Assembly: GCF_011378715.1 (NCBI RefSeq)
Contig: NZ_WTKU01000022.1
Coordinates: 1 to 64,000 of the forward strand
Direction: 5' to 3'
Origin: Psychromonas sp. SA13A
GTDB taxonomy: Bacteria > Pseudomonadota > Gammaproteobacteria > Enterobacterales > Psychromonadaceae
Length of the DNA: 64,000 nucleotides
The notes beneath the pieces are model-generated. The model saw only the letters and a list, made by a program, of their open reading frames with translations. It was not told the DNA's origin and searched no databases. A program made the position numbers and the translations under genes. Shown piece after piece: positions 36,738 to 64,000 of this stretch; position 1 is the first letter of the stretch, and each line of letters begins with the position of its first letter.

Positions 36738-36792
36738 ATTTTTATTCTTAACTATTAACTCTAAAAAGTAAGTTACATTCAAAGGAAAATAT

Positions 36793-46494: not shown

Positions 46495-48360
46495 ATGAAC
46501 AGCCACACACATAATTATATTGAGCAATCACAACAAGCTATATTTCCTTTTAGTGCGGTGCAGGGGCAGCCCTTGTTTAAACTGGCGTTATTATTAGCCA
46601 CGGTTAACCCATTGATTGGTGGTGTGTTAATTTCAGGCCCGCGTGGTTGTGCAAAATCAACGCTAGCTCGTGCCGTGTCAGACCTATTGCCGGTTAAAGA
46701 TGGACAGACTCCAGAATTTGTCACCTTACCCTTAGGGGCGAGTGAAGAGATGTTGATAGGTACATTGGACTTGGACCATGTACTAAAAGACAAACAAGTT
46801 AAATTCTCACCTGGTTTATTAAAAAAAGCACATAACGGCATATTGTATGTGGATGAAGTTAATTTATTGCCGGATCATTTAGTAGATCAATTATTAGATG
46901 TTGCTAGTAGCGGCGTTAATGTTGTCGAGCGTGATGGTATTAGTCACCGCCATGATGCGCGTTTTACTTTAATTGGCACCATGAACCCAGATGAGGGGGA
47001 ATTACGCCCACAATTAAAAGATCGTTTTGGTTTGATGGTTGAATTAGATAACGCCTATAGTATTAATGAGCGTGTTAATATCGTTAAAACACGACAACGC
47101 TTTGAGCTTGATAAAATTGCTTTCTGTGACGATTACCAAACTGAGCAGATTTTTTTACAACAACAAATAAGCGATGCGCAGAAATTACTATCCAGTGTGC
47201 AATGTAGCGATGATTGTTTAATCGAGATAGCTACGCGTTGCCAACAGGCTAATGTTGATGGTTTACGTGCGGATATCATGATGCATCATGCGAGCTTAAC
47301 CCATGCTGCATGGTGTGGCCGAAAAGCGGTTAGTTTTGATGATATCGCACAGGTTGCGCCCCTTGTTTTATCACATCGTATGCAACATGGTGGCTCACCT
47401 CCGCCGTCATCTTCATCTTCAGGAATGCCAGAAAACCCACCAACATCGGATAATAAAAAAACATCTGCGAGCGATAATAGTGGTGGTTTTTCGCGCCCTC
47501 AAGCTCCACAGCAAAAAAATGAGCAAGATGCACTAAATTCTGATTCGAGCAATCATCCTGACCCTGCTAATGGTTCTAATAATGAGGGTGGCAGTCAAGG
47601 TAATTCTGGAGAATGGGGGGCAATGCCCGCTCAATCGGGAGAAGCTCAAAAAACGAATACTATAGCTCATATCGCATTACCAAAATTAGAAAAAAGTACC
47701 TTACAAGCACCGTTTAAACCCAGTTTGTTAACTGAGCAATATAGTAAAAACAAACAGGGAAATACTACAAAAGGTGAGAAAAAATCTCCCATAAATAGCC
47801 ATAAACCCGATTGGTTTAAAACCTTAGCAAATAGTTTAGGGCAATGGCCACCAGCGCAATTTTCCTTTAAAAAAGTAGCCACTGGCGAACAAAACTTACA
47901 TTTGATTCTATTGGATACTTCAGCATCAACGTTAAGTGAGAGCTTATCGTCGATCGCGAAATCGGTGGTGATGAATATTACTGATAATGCTTATCTACAG
48001 CGTGATAAAATTAGCTTGTTAGGATTTGGTAATAACCAAGTTGAAACGATCATTAAAGCAGGACGAGCACCTAAACAGGTCACTCGCTTATTAGACGATA
48101 TCACTGCACTAGGTGGGACGCCTTTGCGACTAATTCTAGAAAAAGCATCACACAGCATTAAACAACTGACGCAACAATATCCAGGATTATCGCTTTTTTG
48201 TTACTTGATCACCGATGGTCGAAGTCGTGTGGATATCGATGATTTAAAACTAAATGTTCCCACTTTATTAATTGATATTGAAAAAGCGCAGATCAAGCGT
48301 GGCCGTGGCAAAATATTAGCACAGCAGCTTAATGCACAATATTTTGCAGTGACAGCCTAA
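46495..48360 (+). CDS. Fused ChlI/ChlD-type chelatase ATPase (CobN partner)
   Basis: This 621-residue protein joins the AAA+ motor and the integrin-like subunit of Mg/Co chelatases in one chain. Residues 10-290 are AAA+: Walker A SGPRGCAKST, Walker B GILYVDEVNLLPDHLVDQLL, arginine-finger region TMNPDEGELRPQLKDRFG. Residues 295-430 are a Ser/Pro/Asn/Gly-rich linker. The C-terminal VWA domain (from about 450) has the metal-ion site LILLDTSASTLSESLSS and ALGGTPLRLIL. With CobN downstream it probably forms the ATP-dependent large cobaltochelatase; in other bacteria these parts are separate (CobS/CobT or ChlI/ChlD). Confidence 0.85.
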   Translation: MNSHTHNYIEQSQQAIFPFSAVQGQPLFKLALLLATVNPLIGGVLISGPRGCAKSTLARAVSDLLPVKDGQTPEFVTLPLGASEEMLIGTLDLDHVLKDKQVKFSPGLLKKAHNGILYVDEVNLLPDHLVDQLLDVASSGVNVVERDGISHRHDARFTLIGTMNPDEGELRPQLKDRFGLMVELDNAYSINERVNIVKTRQRFELDKIAFCDDYQTEQIFLQQQISDAQKLLSSVQCSDDCLIEIATRCQQANVDGLRADIMMHHASLTHAAWCGRKAVSFDDIAQVAPLVLSHRMQHGGSPPPSSSSSGMPENPPTSDNKKTSASDNSGGFSRPQAPQQKNEQDALNSDSSNHPDPANGSNNEGGSQGNSGEWGAMPAQSGEAQKTNTIAHIALPKLEKSTLQAPFKPSLLTEQYSKNKQGNTTKGEKKSPINSHKPDWFKTLANSLGQWPPAQFSFKKVATGEQNLHLILLDTSASTLSESLSSIAKSVVMNITDNAYLQRDKISLLGFGNNQVETIIKAGRAPKQVTRLLDDITALGGTPLRLILEKASHSIKQLTQQYPGLSLFCYLITDGRSRVDIDDLKLNVPTLLIDIEKAQIKRGRGKILAQQLNAQYFAVTA

Positions 48361-48380
48361 AACAGGAAGAGACAAAGTTG

Positions 48381-49820
48381 ATGATAAAAAAAGCAAGTTG
48401 TCCGGCGCTATTTTTAGCCGCACCAGCATCAGGCCAAGGCAAAACCACCATCACTTCAGCGATGGCACGTTATTTTACAGAGCAAGGCAAAAAGGTGCGG
48501 GTATTCAAAACTGGACCTGATTACCTGGACCCGCAAATTTTAGCGCAAGCTTCACATGCACATGTTGAACAGTTAGACATGTGGATGGCAGGTGAACACT
48601 ATTGTCAGCAAAAACTCTTTGAAGCAGCCTCCGAAGCGGATCTTATTTTAGTTGAAGGTGCCATGGGCCTGTTTGACGGCGAACCATCAAGCGCAGATTT
48701 AGCGGCGCGTTTTAATATACCGGTCGCTATTGTGATGGATGTAAAAGGCATGGCACAAACGGCGGCAGCGGTAGCAATCGGCTTAGCCAACTTTCGCGAT
48801 GATTATACTTGCCATGGTTTGATTGCAAACAACTGCAGCAGTGAGCGCCATGCGCAATTAATAAGGGACGCATTAGGAGAACAATTACCTCTGTTAGCTT
48901 GTCTTAAAAAAGATCCTGAAGTGGCATTACCTGAACGTCATTTAGGTCTAGTGCAAGCAAGCGAAGTATTTGATGAGTTAGAAACTAAGTTTACCTTAGG
49001 ATGCGAATGGTTAGTGGACGGAGTAAAACGTGCAGATGCCAATAGCCCATTATTAGCATTGCCAAAAAGTGTCGATTTTTATTCAGCTGCACAACCAAAA
49101 GTTGAGCCATTATTAGCAGGTAAAAGGATTGCTATTGCACAGGATCTTGCATTCAGTTTTATCTATCAAGCTAATACGCGTTTGTTGCAAGAGATGGGCG
49201 CGACATTACATTACTTCTCTCCGTTAAAAGGGGATAATTTACCTGAGGCGGATGCGTTATGGTTGCCCGGTGGTTATCCTGAATTGTATGCTGCGCAGTT
49301 AGCTGAAAACACCGTATTACAGACTCAAATTGCTGAATTTAATCAAGTAGGGAAACCTATCTTAGCGGAATGTGGCGGTTTCTTATATTGCCTAAATGAG
49401 CTGGTGGATTTGGATCAAAAACATCATAAAATGCTAGGTTTATTAGATGGCTTCGGCAGTATGTCTGGAAAGCGAGGCTGTCAGGGAATGCAAAAAGCAA
49501 TCTTACCTGAAGGTGAAATTCATGGGCATGCTCACCATAGATCGCGTGCGATTATGCAGATGCAACCTATCGGTTATGGGCAACGTCAACGTCATCCTGC
49601 ACCCGGAGAAGCGATTTATCGTAGCGAGAATTTAACCGCAAGTTATCTGCATCTATTTTTCCCCTCTAATCCTGCGCTAGTTGCGGATCTTTTTATGGGT
49701 AAATTACAAGCGGTTGACCAACAAAAGTTAGTCGCGTGGGAAAACTACCATACCCAAGCTGTAACGAGTGCGGTTAGCAAAGAGACTCAACAGCAAGCTG
49801 CAATGCAAGCACAACAATAG
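48381..49820 (+). CDS. cbiA: Cobyrinic acid a,c-diamide synthase
   Basis: The enzyme amidates the a and c side chains of cobyrinate using glutamine and ATP. The N-terminal P-loop (AAPASGQGKTTITSAMARYF) and VEGAMGLFDG belong to the dethiobiotin-synthetase-like domain. The C-terminal class I glutaminase-like domain has ALWLPGGYPELYA and the nucleophile cysteine in ILAECGGFLYC. A TTG (48378) directly precedes the ATG; AGGAAG stands 8 bases before the TTG and 11 before the ATG, so the start is uncertain by one codon. Length 479 aa. Confidence 0.92.
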   Translation: MIKKASCPALFLAAPASGQGKTTITSAMARYFTEQGKKVRVFKTGPDYLDPQILAQASHAHVEQLDMWMAGEHYCQQKLFEAASEADLILVEGAMGLFDGEPSSADLAARFNIPVAIVMDVKGMAQTAAAVAIGLANFRDDYTCHGLIANNCSSERHAQLIRDALGEQLPLLACLKKDPEVALPERHLGLVQASEVFDELETKFTLGCEWLVDGVKRADANSPLLALPKSVDFYSAAQPKVEPLLAGKRIAIAQDLAFSFIYQANTRLLQEMGATLHYFSPLKGDNLPEADALWLPGGYPELYAAQLAENTVLQTQIAEFNQVGKPILAECGGFLYCLNELVDLDQKHHKMLGLLDGFGSMSGKRGCQGMQKAILPEGEIHGHAHHRSRAIMQMQPIGYGQRQRHPAPGEAIYRSENLTASYLHLFFPSNPALVADLFMGKLQAVDQQKLVAWENYHTQAVTSAVSKETQQQAAMQAQQ

Positions 49821-49833
49821 AGTAACCTGAATT

Positions 49834-51000
49834 ATGTGGCCGGAATCGAGTGAAACAGAGCAACCATTACGTAATGGTTTAACCACGGGAAGTTGTGCAA
49901 CAGCTTGCTGTGTGGCTGCTGTGCGCGCGTTATTAGCCCATAAGCAACCAGCGAGCGTTGAGATAACGTTGCCGCGTGGTGAAGTGGTTAATCTGGATAT
50001 CATTAATTATCAAGCTATTGAGCAAGGGATACGTACCAGTACTATTAAAGATGCTGGTGATGACCCTGATGCCACACACGGTGCGACTTTATTTGTTGAA
50101 CTACGTTTAGTGCCTGAGCAAGGTATTAAGTTTAAAGCCGCTGAAGGGGTCGGTACGGTTACTCGTGACGGATTAGTGCTAGCAATTGGTGAACCTGCAA
50201 TCAATCCTGTGCCGCGTAAAATGATGACAAGCCATCTTGAACATTACGCGCAAGCTTATCAATATACTGAAGGCTTTGAAGTTTCAGTGGGTGTTGAAAA
50301 TGGAGAGCAGATCGCAACCAATACCATGAATAGTCGCTTAGGTATTATTGGTGGTTTATCCATTTTAGGTACAACGGGCATTGTGCGTCCCTATTCTTGC
50401 GCTGCTTACATTGCTTCTATTCATCAAGGCATTGATGTCGCTCGCGCTAATCACTTCAGGCACCTTGCCGCTTCAACAGGCATTGCCAGCGAACATGCCA
50501 TTAAAGAATACTATCAAATGGACGAAGTGAGCTTGATTGAGATGGGCGATTTTGTGGGTGCTATGTTGAAATATTTACGTCGTGAAAAAATCGATCCTAA
50601 ATCAGGAAATCGCATTCAAAAACTCAGTATTAGTGCGGGTTTTGGTAAGTTAACTAAGCTGGCGAATGGGCATTTAGATCTTAATAGCCGCCAATCGAGT
50701 ATCGATTTTGAACAGTTAGCGAATATCGCAAAAAATCTAGGCGCTAGTACTGAATTACAACAACAAATATTAATGGCTAATACGACTATTCAAGTCCTTA
50801 ATATGACTAAAGAAGCTGGAATAGATATTGCCACTGTAGTCTGTGTTGACGCTTTAAAGTTTGCTAAAAGTATTGTTCACACATCTATTGAGGTAGAAGT
50901 GTGGGCTGTTAATAGAAAAGGTTTGTTTGTTGCTAATAGCCATCAAGATAAATTTGATTCAAAAGGTCAAGTGATCGCTCAAAGTAAGGTTAATTTGTGA
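49834..51000 (+). CDS. cbiD: Cobalt-precorrin-5B C1-methyltransferase
   Basis: The protein (388 aa) carries the family start LRNGLTTGSCATACCVAAVRALL, DAGDDPDATHGA, GVGTVTRDGL and SRLGIIGGLSILGTTGIVRPYS. CbiD belongs to the anaerobic route, where cobalt is already in the ring. Its TGA overlaps the GTG of the next gene. Confidence 0.94.
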   Translation: MWPESSETEQPLRNGLTTGSCATACCVAAVRALLAHKQPASVEITLPRGEVVNLDIINYQAIEQGIRTSTIKDAGDDPDATHGATLFVELRLVPEQGIKFKAAEGVGTVTRDGLVLAIGEPAINPVPRKMMTSHLEHYAQAYQYTEGFEVSVGVENGEQIATNTMNSRLGIIGGLSILGTTGIVRPYSCAAYIASIHQGIDVARANHFRHLAASTGIASEHAIKEYYQMDEVSLIEMGDFVGAMLKYLRREKIDPKSGNRIQKLSISAGFGKLTKLANGHLDLNSRQSSIDFEQLANIAKNLGASTELQQQILMANTTIQVLNMTKEAGIDIATVVCVDALKFAKSIVHTSIEVEVWAVNRKGLFVANSHQDKFDSKGQVIAQSKVNL

Positions 51001-51827
51001 GAATATTAGTCGTTGGTGGTACTGCTGATGGGCGTAAGTTAGCCACTGAATTACATCGATTAGGGTTTGATGTTATTTATAGTATCGCAGGTATTGTGCG
51101 CAAGGCGACTGTGCCTTGTGAGTCTATTAGTGGTGGATTCTGTCAGTTTGGCGGCCTAGCAAAATATGTAACTGAGCATGTAATTACACATGTTATCGAT
51201 GCGACTCACCCCTTTGCACAAACCATGAGTAATACGATTGCTCAAGTCAGCAATGAACTGTCTATTATCTCGTTTCGTTTCCATCGTCAGCAATGGCAGA
51301 AAACTGACCAAGACAATTGGATTGAAGTTTCTGATTGGCCAACATTGATTGAGAAAGTAGCGCAACATCGTTGTTTATTTGTTACCGCGGGTCAAGTTTC
51401 ACAAGCCGTGATTGATGCTTTATCAGCTCAAGCTGAGCAAGTCTTATTACGTACTGCAATGCCCGCAAAAATTATATTGCCTGTTAATGTGACTTGGTTA
51501 AAAGCAATTGGCCCATTTCATCTTGAAGACGAAATGCAATTACTACAAACCTATAATATTGATGCCGTGATCAGTAAAAACAGTGGTGGAGATGCCACTT
51601 ATGCGAAAATTATAGCTGCTAGAGCAGCAAGTATTCCGGTGTATCAATTTAAGCGTCCAGATCTTCAACCCTTACAATACCAATTTGATAATGCAGCTAA
51701 TTGTATCGCGTTATTAAAAGAGTCATTGCTCTCAACTGGAGCTGACAATACACACCGCAACACATTAAATAAAAAATTAAATAAAACATTCAATAACATA
51801 GCAATTGAGCCTAAAGATGAAATTTGA
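50997..51827 (+). CDS. cbiJ: (Cobalt-)precorrin-6A reductase
   Basis: This NAD(P)H enzyme reduces the macrocycle. The N-terminal RILVVGGTADGRKLATELHRLGFDV, THVIDATHPFAQTMSNTIAQV and DAVISKNSGGDATYAKIIAAR are diagnostic of CbiJ/CobK. Start GTG overlaps the cbiD stop (GTGA). The last 30 residues (Asn/Lys-rich) extend past the usual end. Length 276 aa. Confidence 0.9.
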   Translation: MRILVVGGTADGRKLATELHRLGFDVIYSIAGIVRKATVPCESISGGFCQFGGLAKYVTEHVITHVIDATHPFAQTMSNTIAQVSNELSIISFRFHRQQWQKTDQDNWIEVSDWPTLIEKVAQHRCLFVTAGQVSQAVIDALSAQAEQVLLRTAMPAKIILPVNVTWLKAIGPFHLEDEMQLLQTYNIDAVISKNSGGDATYAKIIAARAASIPVYQFKRPDLQPLQYQFDNAANCIALLKESLLSTGADNTHRNTLNKKLNKTFNNIAIEPKDEI

Positions 51828-52458
51828 CTATATTCACGATCCAACATTAATTGAACAAGAGAGTTTTCGCCAAATAAGAGCGTTAACGGATCTGGAACAC
51901 TTATCAATGCAGGCGCAACAAGTCGTGATGCGAGTGGTGCACAGTGTCGGGATCCCCGCCGTAGCTGCACAGGTTAGATTAAGTGAACATGCCTGTGAGT
52001 CAGGTATGAAGGCATTACAAAAAGGCGCTGCAATCCTATGTGATGTGGAGATGGTAAAGCAGGGCATTACAAAACGCATGATTAAAACCGACCCATTGTG
52101 CTTTTTAAACGCAGATGGCGTGCCACAGCGGGCAAAAGAAACTGGCGAAACCAGAACCATGGCAGCATTGACTGCATGGTTACCCTATTTAGAAGGCAGT
52201 GTTGTGGTGATTGGTAATGCACCGACAGCATTGTTTCGTTTATTAGAAATGATTGACCAAGGCGCACCAAAACCCGCCTTAATTATTGGCATGCCGGTTG
52301 GATTTGTTGGTGCCGCTGAGTCAAAACAAGCATTATGGGATGTTCACCAAGAGTTAGGCATAGAATGTATTACTTTATTAGGACGCGAAGGTGGTAGTGC
52401 GGTGTCCAGTGCAAGTTGCAATGCCTTATTACGTTGTATCAAAGGAGAGTTGTATTAA
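51817..52458 (+). CDS. cbiC: (Cobalt-)precorrin-8 methylmutase
   Basis: The enzyme moves the C11 methyl group to C12. The protein (213 aa) shows RVVHSVGIPAVAAQVRLSEHA, with the catalytic histidine in MRVVHS, then DVEMVKQGIT and IIGMPVGFVGAAESKQAL. I chose ATG 51817, which overlaps cbiJ by 11 bases, over the TTG at 51805. Confidence 0.93.
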   Translation: MKFDYIHDPTLIEQESFRQIRALTDLEHLSMQAQQVVMRVVHSVGIPAVAAQVRLSEHACESGMKALQKGAAILCDVEMVKQGITKRMIKTDPLCFLNADGVPQRAKETGETRTMAALTAWLPYLEGSVVVIGNAPTALFRLLEMIDQGAPKPALIIGMPVGFVGAAESKQALWDVHQELGIECITLLGREGGSAVSSASCNALLRCIKGELY

Positions 52459-53897
52459 TGAAGTTCTTTAAAAAATTAATGAATGTGTTTTCAGTTAAGC
52501 TTGCAGACAGTGCGAAAGCATCTAACAAGCCAACGCGCGAAATAGCTGTAATTGGACTCGGTGTCACTGAAAATGCAATGCTCAGTGAACAAGCTTTATT
52601 AGCGTTACAGTCAGCCGATTTGGTCATTGGATCTGAGCGTCAATTATTGACTTTAGAAAAACAATTAGCCTTTCAGCCTAAGGTCGAGGCTCTGACTGAA
52701 GGTGAGCAACAACAGGTTGAACCAAAAGCTGAGGTGTTACCGCCACGCACTGAAATTATTCCAAAATTAAAACAGCTAAAAGCATTAATAGAAACAGAAC
52801 AAAAAGTCGTAGTGTTAGGCTCGGGCGATCCACTTTATTACGGTATTGGCACTTGGATCAGCAAGAACTTTCACGATGCCGCAGTGCGCTTTTTCCCTGC
52901 AGTTTCTAGTATTACCCAAGCTTGTCATAGCCTGTCGATAGCACAGCAAGATGTTAATGTAGTGAGTTTACATGGTCGTCCTTTAGCAAAACTGAAAGTA
53001 GAATTAAAGGCACAGCAAACATTATTACTATTGACTGATAAAGACAGTATGCCACAGCACATCGCAGCTATTTGTGAACAAACAGGATTTACGCAAGCAG
53101 AGATCATAGTGTGTGAACGTTTAGGATATAGCCAACAAAAAATATCACGTTTTAGCGTCTCTGAATTATTAACCGCTGAATCTGAGGGCAATCTACAAAC
53201 CTTCGATGCTTTACATGTTTCCTTTGTTATTTGTGGTGCAAATAAAGGTTATTTACCGGAATTTCCAGGCATTAAAGATACTGATTTTGAAACCGGTGAA
53301 TTAGGTAGTAAAGGCATGATCAGTAAGCGTGAAGTACGTTTAGCTATATTGTCATTATTACAACCAAGTAAAAATGACATCATTTGGGATATCGGTGCAG
53401 GATGTGGTGGCGTTGCCGTTGAATTAGCCTATTGGCAACCACAGGCAAAAATATATGCCATCGAACATAATCAAGCTCGCTTTGATTGTTTATTACAAAA
53501 CCAACAAAAATTTGGGGTCGTTAATAACTTATCAACACAGTTCGGGCGTGCACCTGAAGTCCTTTCAAAGCCTCCTTTTTCTGAACAGCCTGCTGCAAAA
53601 AAAATATTTATCGGTGGCAGTGATGGTGCATTACCAATGCTACTTGAAACGCTTTGGGATAAATTACCAGAAGGTGGTCAAATAGTTGTCTCGGCAGTGA
53701 TGGAAAGAACTAAATCGCAGTTATTCGATTTTTATAGCATTCGCGACAAAGTTGCCGATAGTGAACTTGAGACACTACAAGTGGCCGTAAATAAAAGTAG
53801 AACCTTAGGCGGTCAACTCGCTTATAAACCTGCTTTAAGTGTTAGTTTATTTAGTTTCACTAAAAATACTCAGCAAAACCAAGAAAAGGAACAATAA
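52458..53897 (+). CDS. cbiET: Fused precorrin-6Y/7 methyltransferase CbiE-CbiT
   Basis: This bifunctional enzyme (479 aa) methylates C5 and C15 and decarboxylates the C12 acetate. The CbiE half (about residues 28-255) has IAVIGLGV and VVLGSGDPLYYGIGTW. The CbiT half (from about 275) has DIIWDIGAGCGGVAVELAYW, the SAM-binding loop, and FIGGSDGALPMLLETLW. ATG 52458 overlaps the cbiC stop (TAATG) with AAAGGAG upstream. A basic, hydrophobic N-terminal extension of about 28 residues (MKFFKKLMNVFSVKL...) precedes the conserved start and is unusual. A charged insert follows near residues 75-100. Confidence 0.92.
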   Translation: MKFFKKLMNVFSVKLADSAKASNKPTREIAVIGLGVTENAMLSEQALLALQSADLVIGSERQLLTLEKQLAFQPKVEALTEGEQQQVEPKAEVLPPRTEIIPKLKQLKALIETEQKVVVLGSGDPLYYGIGTWISKNFHDAAVRFFPAVSSITQACHSLSIAQQDVNVVSLHGRPLAKLKVELKAQQTLLLLTDKDSMPQHIAAICEQTGFTQAEIIVCERLGYSQQKISRFSVSELLTAESEGNLQTFDALHVSFVICGANKGYLPEFPGIKDTDFETGELGSKGMISKREVRLAILSLLQPSKNDIIWDIGAGCGGVAVELAYWQPQAKIYAIEHNQARFDCLLQNQQKFGVVNNLSTQFGRAPEVLSKPPFSEQPAAKKIFIGGSDGALPMLLETLWDKLPEGGQIVVSAVMERTKSQLFDFYSIRDKVADSELETLQVAVNKSRTLGGQLAYKPALSVSLFSFTKNTQQNQEKEQ

Positions 53898-53898
53898 A

Positions 53899-54627
53899 GT
53901 GGTATTAGCGTTACAAAGTGGCACTTTTATTGGCGTTGGTGTAGGCCCTGGGGACCCTGAGTTATTAACATTAAAAGCGTATCGAGCCATTCAAGCTGCC
54001 GATGTTGTGTGTTATTTAGAAAATGAGGCTGGGCAGTCGCAATCACTTGATATCGCAGTTGAAGCTCTCAAAAAACCAATTAAACAACAGCTACATTTAG
54101 GTATTCGTTTTGCAATGTCTCGTCAGCGAGTGGCGGCAAATTTAGCCTATGATAAAGCCATCACACAGATACAAGTACATCTGAAACAAGGTAAAACCGT
54201 GGTGTTTTTATGTGAAGGTGATCCTTTGTTCTTTGGATCTTTCACTTATCTATTAGAACGCTTGGAAAGTCAGTACCCGTCACAAGTCATTCCTGGGGTA
54301 CCTGCCTTTGTTGCTGCGACGGCTGAATTACAAATTCCGTTAACTGTATTAAAACAATCTTTTGCGGTGATCACTGGGCGCCATAGTGATGCAAAAATTA
54401 AAGCTGCATTATTAGATCATGATGCCGTCGTTATCATGAAAGCGGGGATTGAGCGTCCACGTTTAATTGCTTTGTTGAAAGAGACTCAGCGATTTGATGA
54501 TGCTAACTATTTGGAATATATCAGTCGTGACCAACAGAGAATAATTCGAGATTTAAATCAGCTAGACAATGTCGCAGGGCCTTACTTCTCTTTATTTGTG
54601 ATCACCAGAGAGGAACTCACCGCGTGA
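53899..54627 (+). CDS. cbiL: (Cobalt-)precorrin-2 C20-methyltransferase
   Basis: This SAM-dependent tetrapyrrole methylase (242 aa) has GTFIGVGVGPGDPELLTLKAYRAIQ, VVFLCEGDPLFFGSFTYL and VIPGVPAFVAATA. The start is GTG 53899, one base after the CbiET stop, with AGGA 8 bases upstream; the longer frame from 53839 overlaps CbiET and lacks a site. It should not be confused with the transporter protein also called CbiL. Confidence 0.93.
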   Translation: MVLALQSGTFIGVGVGPGDPELLTLKAYRAIQAADVVCYLENEAGQSQSLDIAVEALKKPIKQQLHLGIRFAMSRQRVAANLAYDKAITQIQVHLKQGKTVVFLCEGDPLFFGSFTYLLERLESQYPSQVIPGVPAFVAATAELQIPLTVLKQSFAVITGRHSDAKIKAALLDHDAVVIMKAGIERPRLIALLKETQRFDDANYLEYISRDQQRIIRDLNQLDNVAGPYFSLFVITREELTA

Positions 54628-55400: not shown

Positions 55401-55423
55401 ATAATTAAAAACTAGGAAATAAA

Positions 55424-56209: not shown

Positions 56210-56245
56210 CCATAGCGTTGAAATTCAAACAATTTCTGCGTTGGT

Positions 56246-56401
56246 AGTGCTCACTTGGCAAGCCAAGCTCCGCGCTTCCGCCTTGAACTAGCATGAATTA
56301 CTTAGCTATGAATAATTTTAGTTATTGTGGAAAAGGAAAGTACTCACTTGGTAAACCAAGCTCCGTGCTTTCGCCTTTAACTAGCGTGAATTGCTTAGCC
56401 A
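56246..56401. repeat. Two direct repeats of about 63 bp between cbiH and cbiF
   Basis: Copy 1 (56246-56308, beginning AGTGCTCACTTGGCAAGCC) and copy 2 (56339-56401, beginning AGTACTCACTTGGTAAACC) differ at 9 of 63 positions. Each holds the core AAGCTCCGCGCTT or AAGCTCCGTGCTT and CTAGC(A/G)TGAATT. They are spaced 93 bases start to start. The bases around them show no gene. Confidence 0.8.
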
Positions 56402-56460
56402 TAATTTATTTTGTGATAGTGAGTTAAAAAGCTAAAAGTATTAATTAAGAAGGATTCTAC

Positions 56461-57267
56461 ATGAAAGTTTATTTTATTGGCGCAGGGCCCGGTGATCCTG
56501 AATTAATGACGATTAAAGGGGCACGCTTGTTAAAACAGTGTCCAGTCGTTTTGTATGCAGGATCGTTAATTCCCCGTCAAACATTACAAGATGTTGAAGA
56601 CTCAGCTGAGCTGATTGTTGATACTGCGAAGATCAACCTTGATGAGATGGAAGCGTATTTTGTTGAAGCTTCAAAAGCAGGTAAAGATGTAGCACGTTTA
56701 CAATGTGGTGATCCTGCTTTATATGGCGCGATAGCTGAACAGATCCGTCGTTTAGAAAAATATGGTATTGACTATGAAGTGATTCCGGGAGTGAGTGCGA
56801 CGGCTGCATCTGCTGCTTATTTAGGTAAAGAGTTAACCCTTTCTGGTGTATCACAAACCGTGATCATGACTCGTTACGAAGGTAAAACACCTTTTCCTGA
56901 GCGTGAACGTTTACCGCAGCTTGCACAAAGTGGTGCAACTTTAGCGATTCATTTAGGTATTACTAAGATCCGTAAAATCGTGGCCGAGTTAATTCCACAT
57001 TATGGTGAAGATTGTCCTGTGGCTGTTTGTTATCGTAGTTCTTGGCCGGACCAAGATAAAGTCACGGGCACATTGGCGGATATTGCGGAAAAAGTAGAAG
57101 CGAAAGGCTTCAAATTAACGGCATTGATTCTGGTTGGCCATGTATTAGATACCACCAATTTTGAAGATTCATACCTGTATAAAAAAGATAAACCGAATAT
57201 TTTCCGTCGTCGTAAAAATACACTTTCTATTGAAGAATTAGAGGCTAAAGATGTCAACAATAAATAA
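56461..57267 (+). CDS. cbiF: (Cobalt-)precorrin-4 C11-methyltransferase
   Basis: The protein (268 aa) shows VYFIGAGPGDPELMTIKGARLL, VLYAGSLIP, RLQCGDPALYGAIAEQIRRL, VIPGVSATAASAAYLGKELT and VCYRSSWPDQDKVTGTL, diagnostic of CbiF/CobM. AGAAGGA precedes the ATG. It overlaps cobW by 17 bases. Confidence 0.95.
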   Translation: MKVYFIGAGPGDPELMTIKGARLLKQCPVVLYAGSLIPRQTLQDVEDSAELIVDTAKINLDEMEAYFVEASKAGKDVARLQCGDPALYGAIAEQIRRLEKYGIDYEVIPGVSATAASAAYLGKELTLSGVSQTVIMTRYEGKTPFPERERLPQLAQSGATLAIHLGITKIRKIVAELIPHYGEDCPVAVCYRSSWPDQDKVTGTLADIAEKVEAKGFKLTALILVGHVLDTTNFEDSYLYKKDKPNIFRRRKNTLSIEELEAKDVNNK

Positions 57268-58351
57268 CATGTCGTTAAACAAAATTCCAACTACCGTTGT
57301 AACGGGGTTTCTTGGAAGCGGTAAAACTACTTTATTAGCTAACTTGCTTAAAAAAGCCAAAGGCAAACGTATTGCCGTGATCATGAATGAGTTTGGTGAG
57401 TTAGATATCGATTCAGAACTGTTACGTACCTGTCCGCTAGAGTGTGACGATGAAGATGAAGCTGCGGTATTAGTCGGTGGAGATGACGGTATTTACGAAC
57501 TCGCTAATGGTTGTATCTGTTGTACGGTAGAAGAAGAGTTCTTACCTGTGATGGAAAAACTAGTGGCTCGTCGTGATCAAATTGACCATATTCTAATTGA
57601 AACATCAGGTCTTGCATTACCAAAGCCGTTAGTGCAAGCATTCAACTGGCCGGGTATCAAAGAATATTGCACCGTAGATGCAGTTATTACATTAGTTGAT
57701 GGCCCTGCGATTGCCGCTGGCCGTTTTGCCGATGATGAAGATAAAGTAAAAGAGCAACGTGCACTAGATGAAAGTTTAGATCATGACCCAAGCTTACAAG
57801 AGTTATTAGATGATCAACTTAACTCTGCTGATTTAGTGGTAGTGAGTAAAAGTGATTTATTAAACGAAGAAGAGCAAGCGCGCGTTAAGGCAGTAATAGA
57901 AAAACGCGTACCAAGTTCAGTTAAAACAGCTTATATCAACAATGGTGATGTACCACTTGAAGTATTAATTGGTATTAATGCTGGCACTGAAAAAACCATT
58001 GATAAAGTACATAACCATCACGACCATCATCATGCTCATGGTGCCCATCATGATCACGCACATGACCATTTTGATTCAATGGTGATCAGCTTGGGAACGG
58101 TTGATGCCGATAAACTGAAACTAAGTGTTGAAAAGCTATTAAACGAATTTAACTTATTCCGTATTAAAGGGTTTGCGGCAGTTGAAAACAAACCAATGCG
58201 TCAAGTATTACAGGCTGTTGGTAAACGTTTAGAAGTTCATTTTGATCGTTTGTGGGAAGCCGGTGAAAGCCAAAAAACCGAATTAGTATTAATCGGTAAA
58301 GGCTTAGATGAAGCTGCGGTTATCGCTATTTTAAAAAGCGCTGAGGTTTAA
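57251..58351 (+). CDS. cobW: CobW-family metallochaperone GTPase
   Basis: This 366-residue G3E GTPase is thought to deliver cobalt for cobalamin synthesis. Walker A is VTGFLGSGKTTLL, the metal motif is GCICCTVEEE (CxCC), the G-domain shows ILIETSGLALPKPL and VVSKSDLLN, and a His-rich loop (HNHHDHHHAHGAHHDHAHDH) lies at about residues 255-275 before the C-terminal CobW_C domain. ATG 57251 has GAGG 7 bases upstream; the ATG at 57269 does not. Confidence 0.93.
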   Translation: MSTINNMSLNKIPTTVVTGFLGSGKTTLLANLLKKAKGKRIAVIMNEFGELDIDSELLRTCPLECDDEDEAAVLVGGDDGIYELANGCICCTVEEEFLPVMEKLVARRDQIDHILIETSGLALPKPLVQAFNWPGIKEYCTVDAVITLVDGPAIAAGRFADDEDKVKEQRALDESLDHDPSLQELLDDQLNSADLVVVSKSDLLNEEEQARVKAVIEKRVPSSVKTAYINNGDVPLEVLIGINAGTEKTIDKVHNHHDHHHAHGAHHDHAHDHFDSMVISLGTVDADKLKLSVEKLLNEFNLFRIKGFAAVENKPMRQVLQAVGKRLEVHFDRLWEAGESQKTELVLIGKGLDEAAVIAILKSAEV

Positions 58352-58357
58352 TACGCA

Positions 58358-61300
58358 ATGCATCTATTAGCGGCACAACCGGGTGGGTTTGTTGAACAAG
58401 AAGGCATTGTTGATTTAGCGCAATCGCCTGCGCCTTTGGTTGTATTTAGTGCCGCCGATAGCCAATTAACTGCGCTATCAGCGGGTTTTAAACAAGCCAA
58501 TGATATGTATAGGCTTGTTGAAACTCGCTTGGTTAATTGGACTAACTTATTAAAACCTGCTGCTTTTGACCTTTATGAAGATAAAGTGCTAGAGCAAGCA
58601 GAGGTCGTGGTGGTGTCGCTATTAGGTGGCAAAGCTTATTGGCAGTATGGCGTGGAAGGATTAATTCGTTGGTCGAAAGCAAAACCCAATCGCACCCTTA
58701 TTTTGGTACCCGGCGATGATAATGTTGACCCTGAGTTAATTGAGTTATCAACCGTGCCTGAGAAAACGCAATATCAAGTGTGGCGTTATTTACGCAGTGG
58801 TGGGCTTGATAATAGCGCACAACTTTTTGCTTATTTAAATCAGTTATATTTTGAGTTAAATGTTGAATGCAATGAGGCGGTATTTTTACCCGTGGCGCAG
58901 TTCTATAATCAACAACAAATTCAAGCTAACTGGCAAGCTGAACAAAAAACGGTGGCGTTAATTTTTTATCGTAGCCACTTACAATCTGCTAACTGTGAGA
59001 TGTTTGACCAATTTATTGATCTGATGGTGTTAAGTGGTTTAAACCCGTTACCAATAGTGATTAGTTCGTTAAAAGATGAACAAGCCATGCGTGTCGTTAA
59101 TGAATTATTAGTGGAGCACGATTGTCGTTTAATACTCAATAGTACTGGTTTTGCCGCAAATACGGTTAGTAGCCCGGGTTTAAGCTCACAGCCGAATAGC
59201 TTTAAGCGTTTATTTGCTGTTGATATCCCCATCCTACAACTAGTGCTTTCAAGCAGTACTCTACAAGATTGGACTGATTACAAACAAGGTTTACGTAGCC
59301 GTGATATTGCTATGCAGGTGGTATTACCTGAAATGGATGGCAAAGTATTAACCCGTGCTATTAGCTTTAAAACCGAAGTCTTTTTTGATCAGGCAACTCA
59401 AATTTCCTTAGTCCAATATCAATTGCATTCTGAACGTGCTCAGTTTGTCATTGAGTTAGCTAAAAAATATATTCAGCTCTCTCAAACCGATAATAAAGAT
59501 AAACGCATTGCGCTGATTTTAGCTAACTATCCGACCAAAGATGGCCGTATTGGTAATGGTGTAGGATTGGACACGCCAAATTCAACAGTGAATATATTAA
59601 CTACCTTAAAAGACGCGGGTTATCCCATTGAGTCAATACCTGAAAACGGCAATCAGTTAATTGAAACACTATTAGAGTCGGTTACCAACAATCCAAATAC
59701 CTTACATCATTTAGCCTGTTGGCAAAGCTTGTCATTAGTTGATTATAAAAAAGCCTTTGCTTCGTTACCGCTAGTTAGCCAACAAGCGATCACAGAACGT
59801 TGGGGTAAACCTGAAGATGATATTAAATGTCGTGAAGGGCGGTTGATGATATCCGGTATCCGTTTAGGTGAAACCTTCGTCGGCATTCAGCCTGCACGTG
59901 GTTTTAATATCGATTTATTAGCAAATTATCATGATCCTGATTTAGTGCCGCCGCACAATTATTTAGCGTTCTATTTTTGGCTACGTTTAACTTACCAAGT
60001 CAATGCGATTATTCACGTCGGTAAGCACGGTAATTTAGAATGGCTACCGGGCAAAGGGCTCGCGCTGTCTAATGAATGTTGGCCAGATGCCGTATTAGGT
60101 CCTATGCCGCACTTTTATCCTTTTATTGTTAACGACCCCGGTGAAGGAGCACAGGCGAAACGACGTACCCAAGCGGTTATTATTGACCACTTAATGCCAC
60201 CGATGACACGTGCAGAAACCTATGGTGAACTGGCTGAATTAGAAGGGCTGGTGGATGAGTATTATCAAGCTCAAGGTTTAGATCTGCGCCGCGAAGTCTG
60301 GTTACGCGAGCAAATTTTAGCAAAAGTACAAGAAACCAATATTTTAGATGAATTAAATGCTGCTTCTCGAGAAGATGATAACCAAGTATTAGAAGAGTTA
60401 GATACTTACCTTTGTGACATCAAAGAAGCGCAGATCCGCCATGGTTTGCATATTCTCGGGCAACTGCCTGAGCCGCATAAAGTCGCTAATACCTTAATCG
60501 CTTTATTACGTTTACCGCGTGGTGAAGGTGCGATTAATCAAGGTATTTTACATTGCTTGGTGAGCGATTTTTCATTAACGGTGAACGATCAACCTTTTGA
60601 TCCTTTAGCCGCTGGGCGCGATGTCTGGTTAGGTGATAAACCCACATTATTAGAAAAAATCACTGATGCTACATGGCGAACGCATGCAGATACACGTGAA
60701 CGTTTAGAGTTGTTGGCTTTGCAATGGGTTGAGCACTTTTTACTTAACGATAACGATCTTATTGAGCTTAATCATTACCCCGCAACACAAGCATTATTGG
60801 TATATGCACAATCAACAATTCAAACGGCACTAAATCAAAGTGTTGAAAATGAATTAAGTGCAATTATTGATGGTTTGAATGGGAAATTTATTGAAGCAGG
60901 GCCAAGTGGCGCACCAACCCGTGGCCGATTAGATACCTTACCAACAGGGCGTAACTTTTACTCCGTAGATAACCGTGCAATCCCTTCTAAGGCGGCTTGG
61001 GTATTGGGGCAAGAGTCGGCGCAAGCGTTAATTCATCGACATTTACAAGAACAGGGTGATTACCCTAAACAACTTGGTTTATCGGTGTGGGGAACGGCAA
61101 CCATGCGTACTGGCGGTGATGATATTGCTCAAGCCTTTGCGCTGATGGGGGTAAAACCTATCTGGGCTCAAGCTAGTAACCGAGTGGTTGATTTTGAAAT
61201 TATTCCATTCCAATTATTGAATCGTCCAAGAGTCGATGTGACGCTGCGTGTATCTGGCTTTTTCCGAGATGCTTTTGCTAATGTTATGGCGTTATTTGAT

Positions 61301-62155
61301 GCCGCGGTGGTGGCAATAAGCGAACTTGAAGAGCCGGGCAATAGTAATCTCATTAAACAAAATATTAAACAGCGTGAAGCGCAGCTGATCGCTGATGGTA
61401 TGACAATTAGCGAAGCTAAACGTGAAGCCAGTTATCGCGTGTTTGGATCTAAACCCGGTGCCTATGGCGCAGGGCTACAAGGGTTAATTGATGAGCGTTG
61501 CTGGGAACAAAAAAGCGACTTAGCAGAAGCCTATTTAAATTGGGGGGGGTACGCCTACGGCAATAGTGAAAAAGATGGCGTACAAGCTAAAGACGCTTTT
61601 TTACATCAACTCAGCAATATTGAAGTTGTGGTGCAAAATCAAGATAACCGAGAGCATGATTTATTAGATTCCGATGATTATTATCAGTTCCAAGGAGGCA
61701 TGAGTAACGCCGCGCAGGTTTACTCTGGTAAAGCGCCGACTATTTATCACAGTGACCATAGTAATCCAAGTAAGCCGGTTATTCGTACTTTGAAGGAAGA
61801 ATTAAACCGAGTTATACGTTCACGTGTTTTAAATCCTAAATGGATTGAAGGTATGCGTGAACATGGTTATAAAGGTGCCTTTGAAATGGGAGCAACTGTG
61901 GATTATCTTTTTGCATATGATGCAACGACTGACTTGATAGCGGATTATCAATATCAGCAAGTCACTGATACCTTGCTCTTTGATGACGTTAATCAGCAGT
62001 TTTTGAAAGATAATAATCCGCAAATTTTGGAAGAAATGGCTGAACGTTTAATGGAAGCGACGCAACGTGGTTTGTGGCAAGCACCCGATGCCTACCGAGA
62101 AAAACTACAAGATCTGTTATTACAGTGTGATGAAATGCAAGAGAGTAAATCATGA
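58358..62155 (+). CDS. cobN: Cobaltochelatase large subunit CobN
   Basis: This 1265-residue catalytic subunit inserts Co2+ into the corrin ring with ATP hydrolysed by its partner ATPase. Segments typical of CobN/ChlH are RIALILANYPTKDGRIGNGVGLDTPNST, IQPARGFNIDLLANYHDPDLVPPHNYLAFYFWL, IIHVGKHGNLEWLPGKGLALSNECWPDAVLGPMPHFYPFIVNDPGEGAQAKRR, and GFFRDAFANVMALFDAAV. The length is right for the family. It starts 6 bp after cobW. In aerobic organisms CobN acts late on hydrogenobyrinate a,c-diamide; its presence among anaerobic-route genes is odd. Confidence 0.93.
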   Translation: MHLLAAQPGGFVEQEGIVDLAQSPAPLVVFSAADSQLTALSAGFKQANDMYRLVETRLVNWTNLLKPAAFDLYEDKVLEQAEVVVVSLLGGKAYWQYGVEGLIRWSKAKPNRTLILVPGDDNVDPELIELSTVPEKTQYQVWRYLRSGGLDNSAQLFAYLNQLYFELNVECNEAVFLPVAQFYNQQQIQANWQAEQKTVALIFYRSHLQSANCEMFDQFIDLMVLSGLNPLPIVISSLKDEQAMRVVNELLVEHDCRLILNSTGFAANTVSSPGLSSQPNSFKRLFAVDIPILQLVLSSSTLQDWTDYKQGLRSRDIAMQVVLPEMDGKVLTRAISFKTEVFFDQATQISLVQYQLHSERAQFVIELAKKYIQLSQTDNKDKRIALILANYPTKDGRIGNGVGLDTPNSTVNILTTLKDAGYPIESIPENGNQLIETLLESVTNNPNTLHHLACWQSLSLVDYKKAFASLPLVSQQAITERWGKPEDDIKCREGRLMISGIRLGETFVGIQPARGFNIDLLANYHDPDLVPPHNYLAFYFWLRLTYQVNAIIHVGKHGNLEWLPGKGLALSNECWPDAVLGPMPHFYPFIVNDPGEGAQAKRRTQAVIIDHLMPPMTRAETYGELAELEGLVDEYYQAQGLDLRREVWLREQILAKVQETNILDELNAASREDDNQVLEELDTYLCDIKEAQIRHGLHILGQLPEPHKVANTLIALLRLPRGEGAINQGILHCLVSDFSLTVNDQPFDPLAAGRDVWLGDKPTLLEKITDATWRTHADTRERLELLALQWVEHFLLNDNDLIELNHYPATQALLVYAQSTIQTALNQSVENELSAIIDGLNGKFIEAGPSGAPTRGRLDTLPTGRNFYSVDNRAIPSKAAWVLGQESAQALIHRHLQEQGDYPKQLGLSVWGTATMRTGGDDIAQAFALMGVKPIWAQASNRVVDFEIIPFQLLNRPRVDVTLRVSGFFRDAFANVMALFDAAVVAISELEEPGNSNLIKQNIKQREAQLIADGMTISEAKREASYRVFGSKPGAYGAGLQGLIDERCWEQKSDLAEAYLNWGGYAYGNSEKDGVQAKDAFLHQLSNIEVVVQNQDNREHDLLDSDDYYQFQGGMSNAAQVYSGKAPTIYHSDHSNPSKPVIRTLKEELNRVIRSRVLNPKWIEGMREHGYKGAFEMGATVDYLFAYDATTDLIADYQYQQVTDTLLFDDVNQQFLKDNNPQILEEMAERLMEATQRGLWQAPDAYREKLQDLLLQCDEMQESKS

Positions 62156-62805
62156 AGAGTCTGCATAGTTATAAAGACAGTGAAAAGCAGGCTATTTATA
62201 AAGTAATTAAAGAGCGTCGCGATATGCGTCACTTTAATAATCAACCACTTGAACAAGGTTTATTAACACGCTTGTTAACCGTCGCAAACCAAGCACCGAG
62301 CGTTGGTTTAATGCAACCTTGGCGGTTTATTCGTATTACGGATAATAAACTAAAAACATCGATAAAAACGCTAGTAGAAACAGAGCGTAATATAACCGCT
62401 GACCTATTAAATCAACGTAAAAGTGATTTTTTAAAGCTCAAAGTGGAAGGCATTTCAGAATGTGCCGAATTGATCATTGTGGCCCTGCCCGAAGGTCGAG
62501 AAAAGCATGTATTTGGTCGTCGTACCATGCCAGATATGGACTTAGCTTCTGTCTCTTGTGCTATTCAAAATATGTGGTTAGCGGCTCGTGCTGAAGGCAT
62601 TGGCCTTGGTTGGGTCTCATTATTTGACCCAATTAAATTAGCTGCTTTGCTTAATATGCCGACAGATAGCCGACCGATCGCAATATTGTGTATCGGTCAT
62701 GTTGAAAAATTTTATGAAAAACCTATGTTGATTGAACAAAATTGGGCTCAGGCCGCTGAAATTGAGACTTTTTTGTTTGAGAATACATGGCCTGAAAAAC
62801 CTTAA
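62152..62805 (+). CDS. bluB: 5,6-Dimethylbenzimidazole synthase
   Basis: BluB cuts reduced FMN with oxygen to make the lower ligand of cobalamin. The protein (217 aa) has the nitroreductase-like fold with ERRDMRHFNNQPL, ANQAPSVGLMQPWRFI, and WLAARAEGIGLGWVSLFDP. It overlaps the cobN stop as ATGA. The reaction needs oxygen, unlike the ring route encoded upstream. Confidence 0.93.
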   Translation: MKSLHSYKDSEKQAIYKVIKERRDMRHFNNQPLEQGLLTRLLTVANQAPSVGLMQPWRFIRITDNKLKTSIKTLVETERNITADLLNQRKSDFLKLKVEGISECAELIIVALPEGREKHVFGRRTMPDMDLASVSCAIQNMWLAARAEGIGLGWVSLFDPIKLAALLNMPTDSRPIAILCIGHVEKFYEKPMLIEQNWAQAAEIETFLFENTWPEKP

Positions 62806-62988
62806 ATATTTTCAAAATTTAAAAGATAAACGCTTAAATGGAGTGTTTACACTCGTGTCATGCTCCGCGATCGAATGAAAAAGCATTAACACTCAATATT
62901 GTTAAGCTTAAAAAGAAAAAATAATAGTTAATTAGAATATCGAAAATAGCGTGAAAAATACTCAAATCAAAATAAGAAAGAGATTTAA

Positions 62989-64000
62989 ATGACTAATAAA
63001 GCAGTAAAAAAAGGCATCATGGTATGTGGTCACGGTAGCCGTGATAAAGACGCCGAAATGGAATTCTCATTGGTTGCTGAAGGACTAAAAAAACGTTTTC
63101 CAGACCTACCGGTTGAATACGGTTTTTTAGAATATTCAGCACCTAATATTCATATGGGACTAAATAACCTGATCGACCAAGGTGTTGAACATATTTATGC
63201 CGTGCCAGGCATGTTATTTGCGGCTACTCATGCAAAAAATGATATTCCTTCAGTATTAACAACCTTTGAAGAAAAAAATGAAGGTTTGCAAGTTAGCTAC
63301 GGTAAAGAATTAGGTTTACAAGAGCCTATGATTAATGCATTTCAAGCTCGTATTTATGAGTCATTAGGGTTAGATGCGAATAATCCACCTGCTGAATTAT
63401 ACGATACTATGTTAGTTGTGGTTGGGCGTGGTACATCGGACACACAAGCGAATGCTGAAGCTGCTAAATTGACACGTATTGTTAGTGAAAATATGGGCTT
63501 TGGTTGGGCAGATACTGTTTATTCTGGCGTGACTTATCCATCGGTTGGTGTTGGTCTTGAAAAGCTAGTTAAACTTGATTATAAGCGTATTGTCGTTGCG
63601 CCTTATTTCTTATTTACGGGCCGATTAATCAAACGTATTTCTGGTTATGTCGATAAAGTGGCAAAAGAAAATCCAGGGGTTGAATTCATCAATACACCTT
63701 ACTTACGTGACCACGAAAAAGTGATCGATGCTTTTGAGGTGCGTGTTCGTGACATCATGGATAATACACAATCGAGTGAAGAAGATTTAATGGCTATATT
63801 TAAACGTCGTTTAGCCGCGGGTGAAATTGATGTTCATCATCACCATGCTGAATATCAAGATCCAGAGGCGCATAGTCACGATCATAGTGACAGTAAAGAA
63901 CACAGCCACGATCATGCTCACGACCATAGCCATTCACATGACGACTCTCATAAACATGATGGTCATAGTCATTCACACGATCATTCGCATAGCCACTCAC
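62989..64000 (+). CDS. cbiX: Sirohydrochlorin cobaltochelatase CbiX, 3' end outside window
   Basis: The frame is open from ATG 62989 to the last base (337 codons). Two CbiX domains are seen: the first with IMVCGHGSRDKDAEMEFS and PGMLFAATHAKNDIP (metal-binding histidines), the second with VVVGRGTSDTQANAEAAKL and APYFLFTGRLIKRISGY. From about residue 283 a His/Asp/Ser-rich tail (HHHHAEYQ, then repeated HDHSHSH units) runs to the edge. CbiX inserts Co2+ into sirohydrochlorin at the start of the anaerobic route. A 183-bp gap separates it from bluB. Confidence 0.9.
   Translation, partial: MTNKAVKKGIMVCGHGSRDKDAEMEFSLVAEGLKKRFPDLPVEYGFLEYSAPNIHMGLNNLIDQGVEHIYAVPGMLFAATHAKNDIPSVLTTFEEKNEGLQVSYGKELGLQEPMINAFQARIYESLGLDANNPPAELYDTMLVVVGRGTSDTQANAEAAKLTRIVSENMGFGWADTVYSGVTYPSVGVGLEKLVKLDYKRIVVAPYFLFTGRLIKRISGYVDKVAKENPGVEFINTPYLRDHEKVIDAFEVRVRDIMDNTQSSEEDLMAIFKRRLAAGEIDVHHHHAEYQDPEAHSHDHSDSKEHSHDHAHDHSHSHDDSHKHDGHSHSHDHSHSHS

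Follow-up and report, generated by a model that had tools for sequence, protein, structure and literature searches.

The 64,000 bases of Psychromonas sp. SA13A analysed here (the window) are the first part of a contig of 76,780 bases (C15, NZ_WTKU01000022.1) in a genome of 4.57 Mb that is given as 99.98% complete. The window carries a cobalamin (B12) biosynthesis cluster in which two cobalt chelatase systems are encoded together: CbiX on the one hand, and CobN with a fused ChlI/ChlD-type ATPase (ChlID) and the metallochaperone CobW on the other. With a probability of roughly 0.45, this is a cobalt-early pathway made up largely of Cob-type enzymes, in which CbiX would act early and CobN, ChlID and CobW would form a second entry point for cobalt-free corrinoids. 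The job of CobN in cobalt-early organisms is an acknowledged open question (PMC8305020). Here a single riboswitch-headed run of genes encodes the two chelatases together with the ring enzymes, the uptake of cobalt and its chaperone, and the genus has cultured marine members.

A first-pass annotation of the window had named CbiD, CbiG, CbiX, CobN, the fused ATPase and BluB in this cluster. All are present, intact and on the + strand. Its claim of two chelatase systems in one cluster is borne out, and the two are of different classes; the open reading frame (ORF) of CbiX is whole in the contig.

The two chelatase systems

CobN (58358..62155, +) is the large subunit of a class I cobaltochelatase, scoring 1572.8 bits against the curated family TIGR02257 (cut-off 822.05). 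The nearest solved chain is a CobN (9uk9, 1169 bits), followed by ChlH (415) and HmuS (9d26, 348.8). The active-site histidine of the KHG motif (H557) and a glutamate (E596) are kept in 79 of 80 aligned CobN rows, that of the window included; the role of these two residues is taken from PMC12583661, and E596 may, in our own reading, be equated with Glu-577 of HmuS. No second CobN and no BchH was found genome-wide, and CobN is the sole PF02514 protein found.

ChlID (46495..48360, +) has 621 amino acids, with an AAA+ (ChlI-like) and a VWA (ChlD-like) part and intact Walker A and B motifs; its nearest solved kin is ChlI. Against TIGR02442, the putative cobaltochelatase ATPase subunit, it scores 455.1 bits, which is below the cut-off of 779.45. 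This is nevertheless the best of the nine families listed, and the architecture is the same. ChlID is the likely ATPase partner of CobN. The gene between the ring enzymes and cobN encodes CobW (57251..58351, +), a cobalt metallochaperone GTPase (TIGR02475, 451.9 bits, cut-off 332.1).

A programmed frameshift in chlID, which would give a separate ChlI-size product and for which the fs-chlD genes are a precedent (PMC9227772), was rejected. Slippery sites with an immediate -1 stop are present in the chlID linker of the window and of loci L135, L136 and L138. However, 10 of the 19 linkers have no in-frame slippery site at all, and when the codons of a linker were shuffled 500 times, between 89 and 461 of the shuffled versions contained a site (451 in the case of the window), which is nothing beyond chance.

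CbiX (62989..64206, +) is cut by the window end at 64000. The whole ORF (L002:5990-7207) encodes 405 amino acids and matches PF01903 with 168.6 bits. It is of the long form, CbiXL, with two CbiX domains; the catalytic pair, His15 and His81, lies in the first half of the protein, and R147 and R212 lie in the second. The histidine pair is kept in all 47 two-domain CbiX rows examined. The nearest solved chains are sirohydrochlorin ferrochelatases (5zt7, 108.4 bits), and a CbiX serving sirohaem, or inactive, was what the first-pass annotation had set as the case against a double system. The genome has a full-length CysG (C3:65307-66635, 636.8 bits, cut-off 400) that can make sirohaem. A sirohaem role for CbiX is therefore unnecessary and was set aside; with the catalytic pair kept as well, a CbiX for sirohaem is unlikely. 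The CysG cut-off is passed in 24 of the 27 genomes scanned, that of the window included, and not in G016, G018 and G062, so this argument does not hold for every relative.

CobN, ChlID, CobW and CbiX are all under purifying selection. The ratio of nonsynonymous to synonymous substitution rates (dN/dS) is 0.02 to 0.12 for the four where computable, with 0.03–0.06 for CobN, 0.07–0.12 for ChlID and 0.02–0.06 for the CbiX core. These values come from simple counting at dS of 0.62 to 3.22, and 3 of the 48 could not be computed.

Lineage of the ring enzymes

The cluster has these marks of an anaerobic, cobalt-early pathway: an early chelatase (CbiK or CbiX, here CbiX), CbiD (C1 methyltransferase; 49834..51000, +; NF000849, 478.4 bits, cut-off 348) and CbiG with both its N- and C-terminal domains (54624..55400, +; PF11760, 110.6 bits, and PF01890, 107.4 bits). 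The lineage of its ring enzymes is not that of the cobalt-early gammaproteobacteria. CbiL, CbiC, CbiET, CbiH and CbiF all go with the cobalt-late set, and the first-pass label of an anaerobic-type cluster is misleading in this respect.

In the trees of CbiC, CbiL, CbiET and CbiH the window clade is on the cobalt-late side, with support for the separating branches of 97, 99, 99 and 99 in the Shimodaira-Hasegawa-like approximate likelihood ratio test (SH-aLRT). The cobalt-late set consists of Pseudomonas, Rhizobium, Devosia, Pelagibacterium, HdN1 and the gammaproteobacteria G308 and G315. On the opposite side are eight or nine cobalt-early gammaproteobacteria with a clostridial row and, where present, an archaeal one. 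One cyanobacterial row lies inside the cobalt-late side of the CbiH tree. For CbiF, the window clade adjoins Pseudomonas CobM in the part of the tree that was examined. All of these trees, and that of CbiX below, were quickly built, with SH-aLRT as the sole measure of support and a small number of outgroup rows, and the rows of the window clade do not always form one group within the cobalt-late side (2–3 changes). The label cobalt-late was given for CobN together with CobG, and CobG was confirmed by a protein scan for the five Pseudomonas, Rhizobium and HdN1; Devosia is over the CobG cut-off without a scan, and Pelagibacterium, G308 and G315 are under it, the CobG model being the sole model matched by the protein scanned from G308 and from G315.

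Raw scores agree with the trees, without overlap for CbiL, CbiF and CbiC, with the exception of HdN1 for CbiET, and less clearly for CbiH. The CbiC/CobH methylmutase (51805..52458, +) has CobH as its nearest solved chain (3e7d, 192.9 bits) and is under the cut-off of NF006136 (239.5 against 276). CbiET (52416..53897, +) is a CobL-like fusion above both cut-offs (TIGR02467, 146.3; TIGR02469, 101.4). The C20 methyltransferase CbiL/CobI (53839..54627, +) scores 196.3 against TIGR01467 (cut-off 163.25); its best solved chain, at 90 bits, gives no decision on lineage. CbiH/CobJ (55424..56209, +) is a short form of 261 amino acids (TIGR01466, 281.4, cut-off 246.35). CbiF/CobM (56461..57267, +) is nearest to 3ndc, named a precorrin-4 C(11)-methyltransferase (229.8 bits); the cobalt-precorrin-4 enzyme 1cbf reaches 198.7 bits.

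The CbiX tree has two subfamilies (support 98). One holds 16 rows from cobalt-early genomes without CobN and a long-branched Leptolyngbya row; the other holds 28 rows from CobN genomes with those of G104 and G235, two genomes that lack CobN. Of the 18 rows without CobN, 16 are thus outside the CbiX subfamily of the window. Together, the trees warn against naming a cluster anaerobic or aerobic by CbiG, CbiX or CobN alone.

Search for CobG and CobZ

CobG, which the first-pass annotation had not seen, was not found genome-wide either. The best match in the genome has 52.2 bits against a cut-off of 234.8 and is a 584-residue ORF taken for a sulfite reductase. No CobZ match was found in the genome at E 1e-10, nor any NirA-like protein above the CobG cut-off. 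Neither of the two enzymes that would mark an aerobic, cobalt-late pathway was found in the genome.

Twelve of 37 genomes have a protein over the CobG cut-off, and those of ten were scanned (all except Devosia and Leptolyngbya). CobG is the best family for five Pseudomonas, a Rhizobium and HdN1, the fused methylmutase domain of the last being set apart. The protein of Leucothrix arctica passes both the CobG and the NirA cut-off and scores higher as NirA. Those of Anabaena and Nostoc score higher as NirA yet pass the CobG cut-off alone, and were taken as CobG-like. In a second set, 3 of 37 were over the CobG cut-off (L120 again, L192 and L193), all of them also above the NirA cut-off and higher as NirA. 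Two of 26 were over the CobZ cut-off; both are TcuA, as is a match below it in G331. The NirA-like proteins of Leucothrix arctica and G331 may serve as CobG.

The Anabaena subtropica protein (L118:1450-3609) has 720 amino acids and joins a NirA/CobG-like part to a precorrin-8X methylmutase; it is above the CobG and below the NirA cut-off. Judged from this fusion, a NirA-like protein may act as CobG in a cyanobacterium with CobN. The cut-offs of TIGR02435 (CobG) and TIGR02485 (CobZ) are passed by proteins that score higher as NirA (L120, L192, L193) and as TcuA (L217, L218), respectively. Surveys of the aerobic pathway can be misled by such matches.

Distribution of CobN and CbiX

A survey of the joint occurrence of cbiX, cbiD, cbiG and cobN had been proposed with the first-pass annotation. 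Of 432 CobN matches, 80 loci were kept; some of these loci end at contig ends, and the set may omit records that are very close to the genome of the window itself. The closest are nine Psychromonas loci, with 83–91% identity over nearly the whole protein. All four genes are in one run in 13 of the 80 loci: nine of the nine Psychromonas, an 'uncultured Vibrio', Motiliproteus, Marinobacterium jannaschii and Oceanospirillum maris. This argues that the pairing of the chelatases is not due to chance. Many of the named carriers belong to marine genera. The locus titled 'uncultured Vibrio' (L018) groups with Psychromonas in the trees, in its cluster as in its sequences, and is perhaps from a mislabelled genome or the result of a transfer.

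Two-domain CbiX and the N-terminal domain of CbiG (CbiG_N) accompany CobN in all 19 of the genomes G000–G018, which had been chosen for CobN. A less biased sample is provided by 321 evenly drawn gammaproteobacterial genomes, where CobN is above its cut-off in 15, CbiG_N is present in 29, and both are found in nine (six genera); matches to the CobN model below cut-off in G046, G233 and G237, perhaps BchH, were counted as CobN-less, and G233 has CbiG_N. Two-domain CbiX is present in all nine genomes with both, in 18 of the 20 with CbiG_N and no CobN, and in none of the six with CobN and no CbiG_N, among them G231 with a completeness of only 58%. Within this sample the presence of CbiX follows that of CbiG regardless of CobN, and CobN is an addition that has never replaced CbiX in a genome with CbiG_N. 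The genomes G104 and G235 (99 and 100% complete) have CbiX and CbiG, with CbiL, CbiC, CbiET and CbiX of the window-type lineage, and no CobN. Early insertion therefore seems to suffice. Outside the sample, five of five Pseudomonas genomes have CobN, CobG and CbiG_N without CbiX, and CbiG is thus not the strict marker of the early route that it had been taken for.

In G092 and G193 (L229, L205; L230, L204) cobN is on a different contig from cbiX and most of the cbi genes, and the layout seen in Psychromonas is thus one among others. The genome G181 (locus L212) has CobN and split ChlI and ChlD, no CbiG_N, and no strong match to CobG or CobZ. A few genes from its cobN are genes that resemble, by eye, those for BtuF/BtuC-type uptake and a CobO-like gene, which would fit salvage.

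The C-terminal tail of CbiX

The MXCXXC motif for a [4Fe-4S] cluster is not found at the C-terminus of the window CbiX, which carries a CxCFM tail instead. In this tail (L002:7043-7204, corresponding to window positions 64042-64203) a His-rich stretch is followed by HGVYKHIAHPLGPRTMIGEGICCCFMSQFP and then by about 24 residues; within the window, where the gene is cut, the His-rich tail has the ending GPRTMIGEGICCCFMSQFP... Of 47 CbiX rows, 24 have MXCXXC, 18 have CxCFM and five have neither, at least one of the five (L164) seeming to be cut by a contig end. The CxCFM rows form one clade of the CbiX tree, indicating a single origin. The pattern HPxGPRTM...CxCFM is present in 118 of the best 120 protein matches to the whole CbiX, and the remaining two are off by one residue. 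Twelve aligned tails had been chosen by a pattern requiring YxHxxHPxGPRTM and CxCFM, which are therefore constant among them by construction; outside this pattern they also share, without exception, a first H, a Q, a P and an E.

All 18 CxCFM rows are from CobN genomes, most rows having been chosen for CobN. In the 321-genome sample, a strong tail match is found in three genomes only, all with CobN and two of one genus; a fourth match in G320 (E 0.009, 18 bits, in a frame of 48 residues) was taken as noise. A tie between the tail type and CobN is therefore suggestive only. Named carriers of the tail among the best 120 CbiX matches include Marinomonas, Amphritea balenae and a Neptuniibacter. 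For the last two, the CobN and CbiX matches are given with the same length of the longest contig (661,672 and 408,675 bases), which hints that cobN and cbiX are on one contig there. The 120 CobN matches listed, a capped number, include none from Marinomonas.

Proposed role of CobN and alternatives

We infer the order of the reactions, the substrate of CobN and the conditions of its use as follows. CbiX would insert cobalt into sirohydrochlorin, and CbiH, CbiG and CbiD would then contract the ring with its cobalt in place, open the lactone and methylate C1. To our knowledge no enzyme besides CobG and CobZ contracts a cobalt-free ring, and early insertion by CbiX would be obligatory because neither was found. 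Cobalt is also required before the CbiG step (PMC8305020). If the early step is obligatory, then CobN, ChlID and CobW would act on cobalt-free corrinoids from outside, on those of an unseen branch, or on a different substrate. With ChlID as ATPase and CobW as cobalt chaperone, CobN would be an energy-driven and cobalt-specific second entry point, metalating cobalt-free corrinoids of the hydrogenobyrinic a,c-diamide type that are taken up from outside or arise where cobalt is too scarce for early insertion to succeed. It has been argued from buffered assays that CobW provides CobNST, the late chelatase, with a GTP-driven cobalt gradient of which CbiK, the early one, has no need (PMC10206600); low cobalt would therefore be a natural condition for CobN. 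An alternative entry point, or salvage, was among the proposals of the first-pass annotation. It is still the best guess, with a substrate that is presumed, and salvage has already been proposed for the haloarchaeal CobN-ChlID (PMC8305020).

Two points weigh against a second entry point. The ordinary sequence of CobN and the Cob lineage of the ring enzymes would agree equally well with a late route. Several related genomes have cobN apart from cbiX, so a close partnership of CobN and CbiX is not general.

Doubtful, yet a real contender, is a pair of full routes, with an unrecognised substitute for CobG or CobZ and late insertion by CobN when oxygen is present, and early insertion by CbiX when it is not. 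The grouping of five ring enzymes with those of cobalt-late organisms and the retention of CobN, CobW and BluB are consistent with this, and P. aeruginosa required cobN aerobically and not anaerobically (PMC5962746). A CobG can also hide among NirA-family proteins, as in Anabaena subtropica (L118), where the genome has CobN, CbiG_N and a short CbiX. However, the window genome has no match that could take this part, whether to CobG, to CobZ or of NirA type above the CobG cut-off; the CobG matches of relatives (L120, L193) score higher as NirA and are past its cut-off, and the CobZ matches are TcuA. There is also no unassigned + strand ORF of at least 180 amino acids between chlID and cbiX. Unlikely, in our view, is a third B12 arrangement, where Cob-type enzymes would tolerate both cobalt-bound and cobalt-free rings, the two chelatases would be used according to the supply of oxygen and cobalt, a new contraction enzyme would serve the cobalt-free branch, and the CbiX tail (HPxGPRTM...CxCFM) would be a cobalt relay. 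The relay is a guess, and the tail region of CbiXL is reported to be without effect on cobalt insertion (PMC7689651).

Quality control by CobN, ChlID and CobW, correcting rings left empty or wrongly metalated by a multi-metal CbiX, is improbable. Class II chelatases do take several metals where CobNST takes cobalt alone (PMC7689651), and HmuS, the relative of CobN with chain 9d26, removes metal (PMC12583661). Yet the window CobN matches HmuS with 348.8 bits and a solved CobN with 1169, and is far nearer to the latter. We know of no dechelation by a CobN proper. Still less probable is a CobN shifted to the early step, metalating sirohydrochlorin when cobalt is scarce and leaving this to CbiX when it is plentiful. 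The marine habitat of many carriers would agree with scarcity. So would the raising of the cobalt supply by CobW at low cobalt (PMC10206600, PMC7689651), but the ordinary sequence and conserved residues of CobN show no visible change of substrate. Very improbable is that one system is idle or works for another product, CbiX making sirohaem or CobN acting on a different ring or metal. The ferrochelatase kin of CbiX would allow it; against it are the full-length CysG, the purifying selection on both systems, their common position behind a B12 riboswitch in one run, and the lack of a second CobN or BchH in the genome-wide search.

Organisation of the cluster and neighbouring genes

The B12 cluster is longer than it had first been drawn, extending from 42605 to 67264 in window numbering. 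A cobalamin riboswitch (RF00174; 42605..42740, +; 51.8 bits, gathering threshold 31.5) is at its head, followed by cobalt uptake, chlID, cbiA, cbiD, cbiJ, cbiC, cbiET, cbiL, cbiG, cbiH, cbiF, cobW, cobN, bluB and cbiX, and, past the window end, by cobC, cbiB and cobD. All genes are on the + strand, and most neighbours abut or overlap. The gaps 5' of cbiF (251 bases) and cbiX (183 bases) have no terminator-like site on the + strand. A promoter-like site in the 251-base gap carries no weight; such sites are rarer in the region than in shuffles. It is plausible from this layout that the whole run is one transcript.

The uptake genes begin with a DUF4198 protein (42888..43706, +; PF10670, 159.4 bits), perhaps a nickel/cobalt-uptake accessory by its position. 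They continue with the cobalt transporter subunit CbiM (43797..44405, +; NF004905, 269.7 bits, cut-off 173), a NikL-family subunit of a nickel/cobalt energy-coupling factor (ECF) transporter (44405..45007, +; NF058648, 176.7 bits, cut-off 100), the cobalt transporter subunit CbiQ (45007..45801, +; TIGR02454, 140.2 bits, cut-off 111.8), and a CbiO-like transporter ATPase (45782..46474, +), which is below the cut-off of TIGR01166 (166.9 against 211.8 bits) and is named by position. The other enzymes are the a,c-diamide synthase CbiA/CobB (48378..49820, +; NF002204, 396.9 bits, cut-off 254), the precorrin-6A reductase CbiJ/CobK (50997..51827, +), under the cut-offs of NF005968 (192.4 against 231) and TIGR00715 (123.6 against 129.85), and the 5,6-dimethylbenzimidazole (DMB) synthase BluB (62152..62805, +; TIGR02476, 241.7, cut-off 150).

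Upstream of the cluster are metN, metI and metQ for methionine uptake (35027-37611) and a member of a YHS-domain (seleno)protein family (39970-40455; NF041384, 156.7 bits). Adjoining the riboswitch on the - strand (41634-42233) is a small secreted-looking protein with, by eye, a PEP-CTERM-like C-terminal signal.

Comparison with known systems

The double chelatase had been presented as an oddity. It is not new: of 14 control genomes, those of Synechococcus elongatus, Methanocaldococcus jannaschii, Haloferax volcanii and Methanosarcina acetivorans match CobN, CbiX and CbiG_N alike, and mixed gene sets have been described (PMC6461909, PMC8305020), as has a Chlorobium whose genome contains cobN besides an anaerobic set with cbiK (PMC8620254). 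The window is a further case of both chelatases in one organism, conserved in related marine bacteria. No treatment of the Psychromonas arrangement was found by title or abstract in the open-licence literature.

The haloarchaeal pathway (Haloferax volcanii cobN HVO_B0051, chlID HVO_B0050 and cbiX1 HVO_B0054; PMC8305020) is likewise cobalt-early, with CbiX and CbiG and a proposed salvage role. The window adds to this CobW, BluB, ring enzymes of Cob lineage and a CbiXL with a different tail. The cyanobacterial set, for example that of Synechococcus elongatus, also has both chelatases and CbiG_N in one genome. However, in the stretches fetched for 20 of 20 cyanobacterial CobN loci the window's proteins detected none of its other genes (score >40), and Anabaena subtropica and Nostoc parmelioides (L118, L119) have a CobG-like protein as well. 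Cyanobacterial CobN is thought to be served by ChlI and ChlD of the Mg-chelatase (PMC9227772). The cobalt-late pathway of Pseudomonas shares with the window the CobW-CobN pair, the lineage of the ring enzymes and the CbiG_N domain, but has CobG (five of five) and no CbiX (none of five), and mostly encodes ChlI and ChlD by an ORF each. Like the window enzyme, the CbiXL of Bacillus megaterium (PMC7689651) is a class II chelatase of two domains that has its catalytic histidines in the N-terminal part and a tail rich in His, whereas the tail of the window enzyme has the CxCFM motif at its end in place of MXCXXC.

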